Source of the DNA: Gammaproteobacteria bacterium
Lineage (GTDB): Bacteria; Pseudomonadota; Gammaproteobacteria; UWMA-0217
Direction: 5' to 3'
NCBI GenBank assembly: GCA_026981985.1
Contig: JALSHZ010000010.1
Location: 1-32,787, forward strand
DNA: 32,787 nucleotides
Shown here: one piece after another, positions 17,489-22,781 of the stretch
How positions within the stretch are numbered: position 1 is the stretch's first letter
Layout of the letters: every line of letters starts with the position of its first letter
Made by a program: the position numbers and the translations under genes
The notes under the pieces: model-generated
Told to the model about the DNA's origin: nothing
Database searches by the model: none
Seen by the model: only the letters and a program-made list of their open reading frames with translations

Positions 17489-18454
17489 ATGTATTCACGC
17501 ATTACCGGTACCGGCAGTTATCTGCCCGAAAAAATCCTGACCAATAAAGACCTGGAGGCGATCGTCGATACCTCCGACGAGTGGATCAGGGAGCGTACCG
17601 GTATTCGTGAACGCCATGTTGCCGCACCGACCGAAACCACTTGCGACCTGGCTGAGCAGGCGGCGCGCTGTGCACTCGATGCTGCTGGCAAGCACCCTGA
17701 TGATGTAGACCTGATCATTATCGCGACCACGACCCCCGACAAGGTATTCCCCAGTACGGCCTGCCTGTTGCAAGCGCGGCTGGGCATTCGCGGTTGTACG
17801 GCGTTCGATTTGCAGGCGGTCTGCACCGGGTTCGTCTATGCTGTGGGGGTTGCTGACAAATTCATCAAATCGGGAACCCACAAATGTGCGCTGGTGATCG
17901 GTGCCGAGACGATTAGCCGGCTGCTGGACTGGACCGACAGAACCACCTGTGTGCTGTTTGGCGATGGTGCCGGCGCGGTGGTGCTCGAAGCTGGTGACGA
18001 ACCCGGCATTCTCTCGACCCACCTGCATGCCGATGGTCAATACGAGAAGCTATTGCATGTACCTGCGGGGATCTCTACCGGATTTGCCGAAATCCAGGCC
18101 GAGTCGGCGTTCATCCAGATGAAGGGTAACGAAGTATTTCGCGTGGCGGTCAACACCCTGGGCAGGATCGTCGATGAAACCCTCGCGGCCAATGATATGC
18201 AAAAGGAAGACATCGACTGGTTGGTACCGCACCAGGCCAATGTGCGCATCATTCAGGCAACGGCCAAAAAGCTCAAGATGGATATGGATCACGTTGTCGT
18301 TACTGTTGCCGAGCATGGTAATACCTCGGCGGCGTCGGTGCCGCTGGCGCTGGACACGGCGGTCAGGCGAGGAGATATCAAGCCGGGTGAAACGGTAATG
18401 ATGGAAGCTTTTGGTGGCGGTTTTACCTGGGGTTCCGTACTGGCAGTAATGTAA
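17489..18454 (+). CDS. fabH: 3-oxoacyl-ACP synthase III (FabH)
   Basis: The 321-residue ketoacyl synthase III starts fatty-acid chains by condensing acetyl-CoA with malonyl-ACP. The thiolase fold carries the catalytic triad: C112 in LQAVCTGF, the histidine in [10 protein letters not shown] and the asparagine in [14 protein letters not shown]. The cysteine number equals that of E. coli FabH. GGAG precedes the ATG at 17489. It follows plsX, but the usual next genes fabD, fabG and acpP are not here: a CYTH-domain gene starts 7 bp after the stop. The rest of the fatty-acid operon must therefore lie elsewhere in this genome. Confidence 0.97.
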
Positions 18455-18461
18455 CCGGCGT

Positions 18462-18935
18462 ATGGCAACAGAAATCGAACGCAAGTTTCTTGTCGTCAGC
18501 GACGCCTGGCGCGACGCCGTGACGCACAGCGCCATCTTCAGGCAGGGCTATATTGCGACGGGAGAAACAACTCGGGGCTCGGTTCGGGTGCGGATTTCCG
18601 GCGATCAGGCATGGCTGAACATGAAATCTGCGACGCGCGGCATGGAACGGCTGGAGTTCGAATACCCACTACCGCTCGAAGATGCGATCCAGGTCCTTGA
18701 CTCCCTCTGTGAAACCCCCATCATCGAGAAAACTCGGCACTATGTCCGTCATGCCGACCACACTTGGGAAGTGGATGTGTTCGAGGGCGAGAACGCTGGC
18801 TTGGTGGTTGCCGAGGTTGAGCTCGAAACGACAGAAGACCGCCCCTCGTTGCCGGTATGGGTTGGGAACGAGGTCACAGATGATTTGAGGTACTACAACG
18901 CTTGTCTCGTAAAGCACCCCTTTAACACGTGGTGA
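18462..18935 (+). CDS. CYTH-domain triphosphate tunnel metalloenzyme
   Basis: The 157-residue protein starts with the CYTH hallmark ExExK (E4-I-E6-R-K8) and shows further charged residues of the tunnel: VRVRISGDQAWLNMKS, REFLEYP-like RLEFEYPLPL, and EVDVFEGENAGLVVAEVEL. Members of this length cleave inorganic triphosphate or thiamine triphosphate with Mg or Mn; class IV adenylate cyclases share the fold. The substrate is not determined by sequence. It lies 7 bp after fabH and has no clear Shine-Dalgarno sequence, so it is probably the last gene of the yceD-fabH transcript. A biochemical link to fatty-acid synthesis is not evident. Confidence 0.9.
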   Translation: MATEIERKFLVVSDAWRDAVTHSAIFRQGYIATGETTRGSVRVRISGDQAWLNMKSATRGMERLEFEYPLPLEDAIQVLDSLCETPIIEKTRHYVRHADHTWEVDVFEGENAGLVVAEVELETTEDRPSLPVWVGNEVTDDLRYYNACLVKHPFNTW

Positions 18936-18976: not shown

Positions 18977-19021
18977 TCTACTCGACGCAGACAGCAACAT
19001 AACCTCATACAGGGAGATACG

Positions 19022-19654
19022 ATGGTTAACATTTTTATAGCGGATGGTCAGCCATTCGAGGAGAAGGATATCCTCGCTGAATTCGCAGCCGAAGGAATTC
19101 AAGTTCGCAAGCAGTGCAGTACCAGTGAAGAGCTGGTCGACGCAGTCAAGAAGGAGCAGCCTGATGTCGTGTTGCTGTCTTTGACGCTCGGTGGCTTGGG
19201 CGCGTTTGAAGCGATCGATCAGATCAGATTGAACTTCCCGCGCGTGGGTATCGTTATCATGCTGGTGCATGCAGACGGCCCATTCCCCAAGCGACTGCTC
19301 GATACGGGCGCCAGCGGTTTCATTTCTCGCAATACTGATCCGACCGATATCGTTGACGCTATCGTTACGGTAAAAAATGGCGAGAAGTACATCAGCCCGG
19401 AGATTGCTCAAAAAATTGCCATTTCACTGCTGCCTGGTGGCGAAGAGTCACCGCTGGATCGTCTCTCTGAGCGTGAAATGCAAGTCATGTTGCAGCTGAG
19501 CCAGGGTGATTCGCCATTGCTGATTTCGAGCAGGTTGGCGCTGAGCCCGAAAACTGTTAGCACCTACAAGCACCGCGTTCGCGACAAGCTTCGGGTCGAT
19601 GATACTCAGGAGATCTTTGCGCTGGCTGGCACCCATGGCTTGGTCGCACGCTAG
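19022..19654 (+). CDS. LuxR-type response regulator of the UvrY/GacA family with a degenerate receiver
   Basis: The 210-residue protein has a receiver domain (1-125) and a LuxR-type helix-turn-helix (about 145-205; LSEREMQVMLQLSQGD, LSPKTVSTYKHRVRDKL). Length, the C-terminal domain and the position near uvrC and pgsA match UvrY/GacA, which activates the Csr small RNAs. The receiver has lost its phosphorylation chemistry. Aligned to E. coli UvrY, the phosphoacceptor D54 is S53, the acidic D9 is G9, the T82-type position is hydrophobic and the conserved lysine is arginine (ISRNTDP). Only D8 remains. A strong AGGGAG ribosome site precedes the ATG. Whether it has become phosphorylation-independent or is regulated differently is inference. 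A true UvrY may exist elsewhere. Confidence 0.85.
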   Translation: MVNIFIADGQPFEEKDILAEFAAEGIQVRKQCSTSEELVDAVKKEQPDVVLLSLTLGGLGAFEAIDQIRLNFPRVGIVIMLVHADGPFPKRLLDTGASGFISRNTDPTDIVDAIVTVKNGEKYISPEIAQKIAISLLPGGEESPLDRLSEREMQVMLQLSQGDSPLLISSRLALSPKTVSTYKHRVRDKLRVDDTQEIFALAGTHGLVAR

Positions 19655-19681: not shown

Positions 19682-19709
19682 ACAACGGGAAGCATGTGCT
19701 TCCCGTTGT
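19682..19709 (+). terminator. Hairpin terminator after the response regulator
   Basis: A perfect 12-bp stem (ACAACGGGAAGC / GCTTCCCGTTGT) with a 4-nt ATGT loop lies 27 bp after the stop codon. The trailing T-run is weak (AGTTTG), so termination may be partial. It separates the regulator from the DNA-repair genes. Confidence 0.65.
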
Positions 19710-19750: not shown

Positions 19751-20377
19751 ATGGAATTCAGTCTCGATTGCCGCCGTTGTCCGCGGCTGGTGCACTACCT
19801 CGAATCGCTCCGTCTTCGTTTTCCCGACTATCACAATGCACCGGTGCCCGCCTTTGGTGATCCTGCTGCGCGATTGATGATTGTCGGGCTGGCCCCCGGG
19901 CTGCATGGCGCCAATGCCACCGGTAGGGTGTTTACCGGCGATCCGTCCGGTGATCTGCTGTTCGCCACCTTGCACCGATTCGGTTTCTGCAACTATCCAT
20001 CGTCGCGTCTGATGGTCGATGATCTGCGGCTCGACAATTGCCTGATTACCAACGCAGTCAAATGTGTGCCTCCCTCGAATCTTCCTAACAGCACCGAACG
20101 CAAGCGTTGCGGCAGTTTTTTGCGCGACGAGATTGATACCCTTGCGCCACGTGTCATTGTCGCACTGGGGCGTATAGCGCATGAGAGCGTTCTCAAGGCG
20201 TTGGACCAGACCATCGCCCGGTTTCCCTTTGCCCATCTTGCTGAACACTGCCCGCTGGGTGCAGAAGGCCCGATCTTGCTGGACAGTTATCATTGCAGTC
20301 GCTACAACGTACAGACCAAGCGGCTGACGGCTGCGATGTTCGACAAGGTGTTTGCGAGAGCACGGGAGTTGCTGTGA
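19751..20377 (+). CDS. Uracil-DNA glycosylase, family 5 (UdgB-like, 4Fe-4S)
   Basis: The 208-residue base-excision repair enzyme removes uracil and possibly other deaminated bases from DNA. Motif A reads GLAPGLHGANATGRVFTGD (46-64). The iron-sulphur cysteines appear to be C7, C10, C105 and C120 (CRRC; NAVKCVPPSN; RKRC). Motif B near the C-terminus is HCSRYNVQTKRLT, close to the UdgB HPSRxNxxTxRLT pattern but with Cys for Pro. Its stop overlaps the GTG start of uvrC by 4 bp, so the two repair enzymes are translationally coupled. In E. coli uvrY and uvrC are adjacent; here this gene and a terminator lie between them. Confidence 0.88.
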   Translation: MEFSLDCRRCPRLVHYLESLRLRFPDYHNAPVPAFGDPAARLMIVGLAPGLHGANATGRVFTGDPSGDLLFATLHRFGFCNYPSSRLMVDDLRLDNCLITNAVKCVPPSNLPNSTERKRCGSFLRDEIDTLAPRVIVALGRIAHESVLKALDQTIARFPFAHLAEHCPLGAEGPILLDSYHCSRYNVQTKRLTAAMFDKVFARARELL

Positions 20378-22218
20378 CAGCGCAAGACAAGGCTACGAGC
20401 CAAGCCTTCGATCACCAGGAGGTGCTTGCCACCATGCCCGCCGCGCCCGGTGTCTACCGCATGCTCGGTGATAAAGGTGAGTTGCTGTATGTGGGCAAGG
20501 CCAAGCATCTGAAAAAACGGGTAGCGAGCTATTTCGTCAGTGGGAGAAACAGCCTGCGCATTCGCAAGATGGTGGCGCAGATCCGGGATATCCAGATCAC
20601 CGTCACCGAAACAGAAGCCGAAGCGCTGCTGCTTGAGAGTAATCTGATCAAGCAGCATCGGCCTCGTTACAACATTCTGCTGCGGGACGATAAATCTTAT
20701 CCCTATATCTACGTTTCCACCGAAAGCGCTTATCCGCGTCTGAGTTTTCATCGTGGCGCCCGTAGTGGCAAGGGGCGCTATTTTGGGCCCTATCCGTCGG
20801 CCACGGCGGTACGTTTCACGCTCAGTCAACTGCAAAAGTTGTTCAAGGTGCGGCTCTGCGAGGACAGCTATTACCGCAGTCGTTCCCGTCCCTGTCTGCA
20901 ATATCAGATCAAGCGCTGTTCAGCGCCCTGCGTAGATCTTGTTTCACAGGAGGACTATCGGCGCGATATCGAAGACAGCATGCGCTTTCTGTCCGGCAAG
21001 AGTGATGAGCTGATTGCCGAGCAGATCGTCAAGATGGAGCAAGCATCGGCCGCGCTGGAATTCGAGCAGGCGGCGCAATACCGCGATCAGATCGAACTGA
21101 TGCGCAAAATCGCGCAGCAGCAGTACATCAGTGGGGCGAAAGGTGATGTCGATGTGATTGCGGTTGCTATCGAGCAGGGGGTTGCCTGCGTGCAGGTATT
21201 TTATATCCGCACCGGGAACAGCCTTGGCAACCGGGCGTTTTTTCCGCGCCTGCCGGACAAGGGCGCCGACGAGAACGAGGTGCTGGCGGCTTTTCTCGGG
21301 CAATACTATGCAGCCCGGGAGATCCCAGCTGAGGTCATCATCAGTCGGCCATTGAAAGATCATGTGTTGATCGAGCAAATGCTGCGGCTGCGCAAGGAAG
21401 GCAAGGTGGTGCTGAAAAGCAGTGTTCGTGGTGAGCGGTCGAAATGGCTGGAGATGGCCGAGCGCAACGCGCGTGTTGCACTGCGTTCTCGCCTTGCATC
21501 ACGTGAGACGGTACGCACGCGCTATGAAGATCTGCAAGAACGGCTCGGGCTCGATGAAATACCCAAGCGCATGGAGTGTTTCGATATTTCCCATACCCAG
21601 GGCGAGGCGACGGTTGCCTCCTGTGTCGTCTTCAATGAAGAAGGGCCGCTCAATGGCGACTATCGGCGCTTCAATATCACCGGCATTACGCCCGGAGACG
21701 ACTATGCGGCCATGCATCAGGCGCTGAGCCGGCGCTATCGCAGACTGGCGGAGGGCGAAGGTGTTTTGCCTGATATTCTTTTCATCGACGGCGGGCGTGG
21801 TCAGCTGCATCAGGCAGAGGCGGTGCTCAGCGACTTCCAGATCCAGGGTGTCACGCTGGTCGGGGTGGCGAAGGGCGAGGGACGCAAGGCTGGTTTGGAA
21901 ACGTTGTTTGTTTCGGGCCAGGACAAGGGTATTTCATTGCCACCTGATAGTCCCGCGCTGCAATTGGTGTTGCAGATTCGGGATGAGGCGCATCGATTCG
22001 CCATCACCGGCCATCGCAAGCGGCGGGCCAAGGCGCGGGTCAGTTCGACGCTGGAGGAGGTGCCGGGGTTGGGGCCGAAACGGCGCCAGGCATTGCTGCA
22101 ACACTTTGGCGGTATCCGCGCCATTGCCACCGCCAGTATCGAAGAGTTGGCCAAGGTGCAGGGCATCAGCAGGCGTCTCGCCGAGGCCATCTATAGCCGC
22201 TATCATGACGAGACCTGA
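20374..22218 (+). CDS. uvrC: Excinuclease ABC subunit C
   Basis: The 614-residue nuclease makes both incisions in nucleotide excision repair. An N-terminal GIY-YIG domain (about 20-100; PGVYRML, LLYVGKAKHLKKRV) makes the 3' cut. The UVR motif (about 200-240; EQASAALEFEQAAQYRDQI) binds UvrB. The RNase H-like domain (about 380-540; ECFDISHTQGEATVASCVVF) makes the 5' cut. Tandem helix-hairpin-helix motifs end the protein (VPGLGPKRRQALL; GISRRLAEAIY). The GTG at 20374 is chosen because it gives the usual N-terminal length and overlaps the upstream stop (GTGA). pgsA follows 20 bp downstream as in E. coli. Confidence 0.97.
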   Translation: MTAQDKATSQAFDHQEVLATMPAAPGVYRMLGDKGELLYVGKAKHLKKRVASYFVSGRNSLRIRKMVAQIRDIQITVTETEAEALLLESNLIKQHRPRYNILLRDDKSYPYIYVSTESAYPRLSFHRGARSGKGRYFGPYPSATAVRFTLSQLQKLFKVRLCEDSYYRSRSRPCLQYQIKRCSAPCVDLVSQEDYRRDIEDSMRFLSGKSDELIAEQIVKMEQASAALEFEQAAQYRDQIELMRKIAQQQYISGAKGDVDVIAVAIEQGVACVQVFYIRTGNSLGNRAFFPRLPDKGADENEVLAAFLGQYYAAREIPAEVIISRPLKDHVLIEQMLRLRKEGKVVLKSSVRGERSKWLEMAERNARVALRSRLASRETVRTRYEDLQERLGLDEIPKRMECFDISHTQGEATVASCVVFNEEGPLNGDYRRFNITGITPGDDYAAMHQALSRRYRRLAEGEGVLPDILFIDGGRGQLHQAEAVLSDFQIQGVTLVGVAKGEGRKAGLETLFVSGQDKGISLPPDSPALQLVLQIRDEAHRFAITGHRKRRAKARVSSTLEEVPGLGPKRRQALLQHFGGIRAIATASIEELAKVQGISRRLAEAIYSRYHDET

Positions 22219-22238: not shown

Positions 22239-22781
22239 ATGGACTTCAATATTCCCAATTTGCTGACGCTGGCGCGTATCGTATTGATACCGCTGGTGCT
22301 TATTATTTTCTATCTGCCTATCGAACACGCCGGCCCGCTGGCTGCGATACTGTTTGCGATTGCAGGTATTACCGACTGGCTCGATGGCTATCTGGCGCGC
22401 CGGCTCAACCAGATGTCGCGTTTTGGCGCTTTCCTTGACCCGGTAGCCGACAAGCTGATGGTCGCGGCGGCCTTGTTGCTGATCGTCGACAAGTTTGGTG
22501 GTGTCTGGATCACGGCTGCTGCGGTGATTATCATCGGCCGTGAGATCGCGATCTCGGCGCTACGTGAGTGGATGGCGGAAATTGGTGATCGCAGAAAGGT
22601 GGCCGTCAGCTATCTGGGCAAGCTCAAAACCACCGCGCAGATGTTCGCGCTGTTTTTTCTGCTATACCAGGAGCCGTTGCTGGGCTTGCCGTCACTGCAG
22701 ATAGGATTCGTCCTGCTGGCCATTTCGGCCGTGCTGACACTGTGGTCTATGTTCAACTACCTCCGTCTGGCCATGAAATAG
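22239..22781 (+). CDS. pgsA: CDP-diacylglycerol--glycerol-3-phosphate 3-phosphatidyltransferase
   Basis: The 180-residue inner-membrane enzyme makes phosphatidylglycerophosphate, the committed step to phosphatidylglycerol and cardiolipin. The CDP-alcohol phosphotransferase motif is complete: D46-x2-D49-G50-x2-A53-R54-x8-G63-x3-D67-x3-D71 (DWLDGYLARRLNQMSRFGAF then LDPVADK). Several hydrophobic helices span the membrane (for example 15-26, 35-45, 75-88, 142-175). The length equals that of E. coli PgsA and the neighbours (uvrC before, tRNA cluster after) are the same. The gene starts directly with ATG after a TAGAAT box and lacks a ribosome binding site. Confidence 0.96.
   Translation: MDFNIPNLLTLARIVLIPLVLIIFYLPIEHAGPLAAILFAIAGITDWLDGYLARRLNQMSRFGAFLDPVADKLMVAAALLLIVDKFGGVWITAAAVIIIGREIAISALREWMAEIGDRRKVAVSYLGKLKTTAQMFALFFLLYQEPLLGLPSLQIGFVLLAISAVLTLWSMFNYLRLAMK

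Follow-up and report, generated by a model that had tools for sequence, protein, structure and literature searches.

A GacA/UvrY orthologue with an aspartate-less receiver in a family of Gammaproteobacteria, and its apparent separation from the kinase BarA

The gacA locus

The window (the whole stretch of DNA that was analysed, 32,787 nucleotides; it belongs to genome G000, and compared genomes are designated G001 and so on) carries a gene for a GacA-like protein that combines a receiver domain (Pfam PF00072, 44 bits against a cut-off of 30.2) with a LuxR/GerE helix-turn-helix (HTH; PF00196, E 4.8e-13, above cut-off). Its open reading frame starts with ATG. The genes and non-coding features of the locus are:

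18462-18935 (+): CYTH-domain gene, upstream of gacA (Pfam)
19009-19021 (+): ribosome-binding region ACAGGGAGATACG; positions 19007-19021 read ATACAGGGA (upstream comparison)
19022-19654 (+): aspartate-less GacA/UvrY orthologue, pseudo-receiver and LuxR/GerE HTH, 210 aa (ORF list, Pfam, NCBIfam, tree)
19682-19709 (no strand): strong inverted repeat ACAACGGGAAGCA..TGCTTCCCGTTGT, between gacA and the uracil-DNA glycosylase gene (sequence)
19751-20377 (+): gene of the uracil-DNA glycosylase superfamily, closest to family 4, separating gacA from uvrC (Pfam)
20383-22218 (+): uvrC, conserved uvrY/gacA neighbour, from its predicted ORF start (profile match)
22239-22781 (+): pgsA, the next conserved gene (profile match)

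The CYTH-domain gene is itself preceded by fabH (at 17489). The core of the ribosome-binding region, AYAGGGAGA, is common to all four genomes in which the gene was found, and the remaining upstream region aligns poorly. This region (as ATACAGGGA) resembles the CsrA consensus, and on that likeness the gacA mRNA might be a target of CsrA. No GacA-like box was found upstream of the gene itself, and Rfam recognises only three tRNAs in the window. The inverted repeat is likely, to judge by its sequence, to be a transcription terminator.

The preliminary description of this DNA had placed the gene at the canonical uvrY position, and the neighbourhood agrees: uvrC lies downstream in the window, in G001 and in G004, with pgsA following in the window and in G001, and uvrC adjoins gacA in most of the canonical loci tested. 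(In G004 uvrC comes directly after gacA, whereas in the window the glycosylase gene lies between; in G002 the contig ends and uvrC linkage is beyond reading.) The best NCBIfam model for the protein is NF007018 (UvrY/SirA/GacA), at 157 bits, which falls short of the 280-bit cut-off; canonical relatives score 297-315 bits. In the protein tree, several backbone forks of which are weak, the four family proteins form one clade (support 100/100) nested in canonical GacA next to those of G046 and G005, the nearest rows being L012 and L013. The stem of this clade is long, at 2.4 changes per column versus 0.04-0.25 on the internal family branches. A single gammaproteobacterial family thus has this gene as its true GacA/UvrY orthologue.

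The preliminary description had called for a search for a second GacA; with NF007018, no second GacA-grade regulator is found in G000 or in the other family genomes. Regulators at G000:C144 and G001:C69 score 185-191 bits; the former (191 bits, above the window protein) was considered as a second GacA and set aside, as it falls outside the GacA clade and lies beside a HisKA_3 kinase.

The receiver domain

The residues of the phosphorylation pocket lie at:

19043-19048 (+): D8 (retained acidic residue DD1) and G9 (DD2 lost; G or N in the family) (alignment)
19178-19180 (+): S53, replacing the phospho-acceptor Asp; S in 4/4 orthologues, D in 36/36 canonical rows (alignment A2)
19262-19264 (+): L81, replacing the switch Thr/Ser; L in 4/4 orthologues (alignment A2)
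19319-19330 (+): F100 (aromatic switch position; canonical Y) to R103 (conserved Lys; K in G002) (alignment A2)

Alignment A2 comprises 40 rows, 36 canonical relatives and 4 family members (L083, described below, is omitted). Each canonical row has D8/D9, D53, T or S81, Y100 and K103; each family row has D8, G or N9, S53, L81, F100 and R or K103; and direct reading of the G000 protein gives D8, G9, S53, L81, F100 and R103. The serine, the glycine and the hydrophobic residue at the Thr position that the preliminary description had named are borne out by both readings. Its arginine for the conserved lysine is present in the G000 protein but not fixed in the family, G002 having Lys. The loop after strand 3 is also altered: where the canonical set has an invariant Pro (Asp +4) and Gly (Asp +8), the window protein has G57 and A61. 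Both positions are named as altered in the pseudo-receiver class in a 2025 review (PMC12632262).

A functional UvrY/GacA receiver, defined by the phospho-Asp, the DD pair, Thr/Ser and Lys, is departed from at S53, G9 and L81, and the protein is an aspartate-less receiver, in the sense of a receiver fold that lacks the phospho-Asp. The family-wide loss of the phospho-acceptor, of the second metal-binding Asp and of the Thr switch supports the earlier statement that the protein cannot be a normal BarA/GacS target: by its sequence, the receiver has lost the usual means of taking up a phosphoryl group. Some pocket chemistry could be left, given the retained D8, F100 and a basic residue at 103. D54N in Shewanella UvrY abolishes transfer from BarA to UvrY (PMC3171408), substitution of Asp54 in Salmonella abolishes csrB expression (as quoted in PMC4682653), and DNA binding in vivo by canonical UvrY needs BarA-dependent phosphorylation (PMC4682653). 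Acetyl phosphate does not phosphorylate canonical Shewanella UvrY (PMC3171408).

Among the full-length rows of a wider set of more than 100 relatives, D53 is lost in just one further protein, a LetA/GacA orthologue of Legionella brunensis (L083, 9923-10579), which has Ala at the phospho-Asp position and retains DD, T and K. Either an independent loss or a sequence error is possible there.

An AlphaFold2 model of the aspartate-less GacA (mean pLDDT 86.6, pTM 0.70) is two-domain and of the NarL family. The model shows a receiver fold that is predicted to be intact and is uninformative about the switch. Its structural neighbours are LiaR, VraR, EvgA and RcsB; VpsT is also among them, though not closest. 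This last likeness, together with two receiver blocks that are invariant in the family (QPDVVL.SL..GG.GAFEAID and GPFP.RLL.TGASGF), is what favours regarding the receiver as a ligand- or protein-binding switch in which another input replaces phosphorylation, as c-di-GMP does for VpsT. The VpsT-type motif that follows the receiver is W[F/L/M][T/S]R; residues 123-126 here, after the last receiver helix, are YISP, which departs from that VpsT/CsgD-type motif, and a ligand is not indicated, so that this alternative is considered rather improbable. (In VpsT, R134 has a role in c-di-GMP binding; PMC3359988.)

Fixation and selection

An order-wide search for relatives yields five genomes, all of one family. 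Their public records are of metagenome-assembled Gammaproteobacteria, and the label of one of them, HyVt-560, suggests a hydrothermal vent source. In one of the five, G003, the contig that carries uvrC stops 138 bases before that gene, so that gacA cannot be scored. S53, L81 and the lack of an acidic residue at position 9 are constant across the four orthologues that were found, which span 3 genera of one family; this is what the alignment proposed in the preliminary description was to establish; identity to the G000 protein is 92% in G001 and 74% in each of G002 and G004. That the substitutions arise from sequencing error, mis-assembly or recent mutation is suggested by nothing more than the draft state of the source assemblies and is refuted by their recurrence in four assemblies and three genera, three of these assemblies with conserved uvrC synteny; the probability left to it is negligible.

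For the closest pair, G000 and G001, dN/dS of gacA is ~0.05 (receiver 0.07, HTH 0.04); between genera that of the receiver is up to 0.46, a rough value with dS near saturation. Frameshift or truncation is found in 0 of 4 genomes. A pseudogene is accordingly rejected, by the low dN/dS and by the substitutions shared among orthologues. By these measures the gene is under purifying selection and is not decaying. The two outcomes named beforehand as contrary (a close relative with the aspartate, and a pseudogene-like dN/dS) were looked for, and neither occurred. Since the substitutions are common to four genomes of three genera and the gene is under purifying selection, they are more than chance. 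The conversion of the receiver is best placed as a single event on the family stem.

The two domains have since changed at different rates. For family pairs at UvrC identity 0.63-0.67, identity is 0.58-0.60 in the receiver and 0.94-0.97 in the HTH; for canonical pairs at UvrC identity 0.62-0.70 the means, 0.83 and 0.85, are similar to each other. Taken with the long stem branch and the dN/dS values, these figures point to rapid change that then became fixed, the HTH being more tightly constrained than in canonical GacA. The far faster divergence of the receiver, and its dN/dS between genera, could also be taken for slow decay, the receiver being a passive remnant and the HTH alone mattering. 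Such decay is very unlikely, in view of a receiver dN/dS below 1 (0.07 between the closest two genomes), a confidently predicted fold, reading frames that are whole in all four genomes, and the several invariant receiver blocks.

The DNA-binding domain and Csr output

19460-19621 (+): LuxR/GerE helix-turn-helix, with family-fixed K183, H184, R187 (recognition helix) and T195, Q196, I198 (dimer helix) (Pfam, alignment)

Between family genera the HTH is 94-97% identical (receiver 58-60%), and it carries changes that are fixed in the family: R183K, Y184H and F187R in the recognition helix and D195T, V196Q and L198I in the dimer helix. (The roles of these two helices are those usual in the NarL family.) The HTH that the preliminary description had called intact is therefore present as a domain but is changed at these places. 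Identity of the family HTH to canonical HTHs is 0.48; canonical pairs separated by a comparable UvrC distance reach 0.68. The recognition-helix stretch SPKTV.TY is retained in the family, and K177, T178 and R185 are invariant. The changes in the recognition and dimer helices fall on the same stem branch as the receiver losses and, since the HTH was altered together with the receiver, the target sites may have changed as well.

Every family genome has CsrA, in 2-3 copies. On the other hand, GacA boxes in G000 do not exceed those in a reversed control (1 vs 5 at one mismatch, 65 vs 65 at two), and none of the sites examined in the family resembles an Rsm/Csr sRNA promoter, by a procedure that is clearly positive in one of three control genomes and would miss diverged boxes. 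In that positive (L163, G046:C4:98000) a one-mismatch GacA box precedes 11 A(N)GGA motifs, and a terminator is present; it is likely, on these features, to be an Rsm/Csr sRNA, and Rfam does not recognise it. Three further candidates were rejected: L167 (G004) and L172 (G002) each have a GacA box and many GGA motifs, the former leading into a reading frame and the latter being without an sRNA-like terminator, and L197 (G000:C100) has nine A(N)GGA motifs and an unconvincing terminator.

These data bear on a simpler alternative, in which GacA is constitutively active: a locked-on pseudo-receiver would act at the ordinary GacA box, CsrA sequestration would be permanent or set by the expression of gacA, and the pathway would be simplified and not re-targeted. 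The retained SPKTV.TY half of the recognition helix with its invariant K177, T178 and R185, and the presence of CsrA, are compatible with this, but the box counts, the lack among the examined sites of one like an Rsm/Csr sRNA promoter (though the method found one in G046) and the heavy change of the HTH on the stem speak against it, and it is regarded as unlikely. At least a partial shift of targets is probable, given that the recognition and dimer helices changed on the stem too and that the sites examined gave no Csr sRNA with a GacA box.

Many of the two-mismatch GacA boxes in G000 are copies of repeated elements. A MITE-like element is found at more than 20 sites of the G000 genome (L187, L188, L191, L193-L195 and L211-L214 among them; none in the window); it is ~120 bp long, is bounded by the repeats GTAACTGCTCAG...CTGAGCAGTTAC and contains TGTAAATGAGCACTTCCA. 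A second repeat, TGTGAGAGTGCTCTTCCATCTTGTTTGTTCATGG (L183, L186, L215, L216), is seen several times close to the ends of contigs, and it may represent the end of an insertion sequence.

BarA and a second regulator

The best family matches to the BarA model are kinases at G000:C52, G001:C152 and G003:C15. The search of G000 for a BarA/GacS kinase that had been proposed at the outset thus leads to a BarA homologue on C52, beside a regulator designated RR2. The domains of these kinases are HAMP, HisKA, HATPase, receiver and Hpt, with a weak sCache_4 match in G000 and G003 (2 of 3), and the three phosphorelay residues (His, Asp, Hpt-His) are kept, so that the C52 kinase has the domain set that defines BarA. 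Its best NCBIfam model is BarA, NF008318, at 487 bits and below the 890-bit cut-off (as is canonical G005 BarA, at 657 bits). The BarA tree resolves internal relationships poorly, and orthology therefore rests on best hits and on a shared gene cassette: the sensor-kinase half is best matched by BarA of other genomes, and a TonB-receptor/ABC_sub_bind/BarA cassette is surrounded by genes that commonly adjoin barA in G043 (acpS/pdxJ/recO/era-like) and G024 (cysM-like; all named by protein resemblance). Two other identifications were dropped on this evidence. An unrelated kinase of a TonB operon is at odds with the kinase half and the cassette's place at usual barA sites, and a BarA lacking Hpt, which a model match ending near position 798 had implied, is at odds with the Hpt that Pfam finds.

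Upstream of the cassette in G000, G001 and G003 is RR2, a LuxR-type regulator with an intact receiver, and the gene order in each is RR2-TonB-ABC_sub_bind-BarA. G038, of another family, has RR2 (49% identical), ABC_sub_bind and BarA, the TonB gene being undetected, and its GacA is intact; the gain of RR2 alone therefore did not force the loss of the aspartate. The Hpt motif is HQ..G in all four kinases with an RR2 neighbour and HK or HR in the six others examined, which fits a change of partner, as a motif-level sign only. BarA and RR2 are undetected in G002 and G004 (drafts of 510-670 contigs, completeness 95), and both genomes retain the aspartate-less GacA. The rewired Gac/Csr pathway of the preliminary description can be put more sharply: in part of the family BarA shares an operon with a regulator, RR2, whose receiver appears phosphorylatable.

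The reading judged probable is that GacA became a pseudo-receiver regulator on the family stem and acts independently of phosphorylation, with targets probably shifted, and that BarA was re-partnered to RR2. BarA would now phosphorylate RR2, as their proximity in the operon suggests, and GacA, freed from its kinase, would act without phosphorylation and bind DNA in the ground state, at targets that are probably shifted at least in part. Its output may be set by the amount of protein, by a partner or ligand at the receiver, or by dimerisation through the altered dimer helix. The order of events would be that suggested by G038, with RR2-BarA and an intact GacA. A fuller history, in which the partners of the Gac system were exchanged in nature, is put forward tentatively: BarA gained a regulator of its own, RR2, within its operon, and GacA, no longer phosphorylated, was repurposed, acquired new DNA targets and outlived BarA in two genera, the lineage of G038 being intermediate-like.

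BarA and GacA are among the most conserved gammaproteobacterial signalling pairs, and here the pair seems split. Canonical GacA in related families, RR2-BarA with intact GacA in G038, and aspartate-less GacA with or without BarA make up a before-and-after series in which the origin of a pseudo-receiver from a global regulator coupled to a kinase can be tested directly.

Comparison with known systems

The protein shares with UvrY/GacA/SirA/LetA (NF007018) its domain order, its uvrC-pgsA synteny and its place within the GacA clade; unlike these, it is without the phospho-Asp, DD2 and Thr, and the kinase is either encoded with another regulator or undetected. Aspartate-less receivers are ~4% of receivers (PMC4395418, as cited in PMC12632262); according to the same two sources, Ser ranks third among the residues that replace the Asp (15%), and DD1 is usually retained with DD2 lost. 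The activation and inactivation of pseudo-receivers are described as an unresolved matter (PMC12632262). The window protein resembles this class in its fold without the phospho-Asp, in its Ser and in its DD pattern, and differs in having Leu at the Thr/Ser position and in that the conversion is visible against canonical, kinase-coupled orthologues. SsoR of Shewanella (PMC11045786) and regulators of the HP1043/ChxR type are likewise phosphorylation-independent, with activity governed by amount or by a fixed conformation (properties that are predicted here); they belong to the OmpR/PhoB family, not to NarL/LuxR, and SsoR retains a full phosphorylation pocket. Pseudo-receivers are thus already known, while an aspartate-less GacA throughout a family, with a re-partnered BarA, appears to be new: no paper on GacA/UvrY so fixed, or on BarA encoded with another regulator, was found in a search that lay outside most subscription journals.

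Elsewhere BarA is described as an orphan that does not adjoin uvrY (PMC11045786). The family kinase is like BarA/GacS/LetS in its HAMP-to-Hpt domain series (and, in two of three, the weak sCache_4 match), and unlike them in two respects: its operon also encodes RR2, a TonB receptor and an ABC_sub_bind protein, and its Hpt motif is HQ..G, not HK..G. The linkage to ABC_sub_bind and TonB-receptor genes suggests that BarA may receive a periplasmic ligand input. BarA with an ABC_sub_bind protein, mostly also with a TonB receptor, occurs in several gammaproteobacterial families (L143, L144, L145, L229, L230 and L231).
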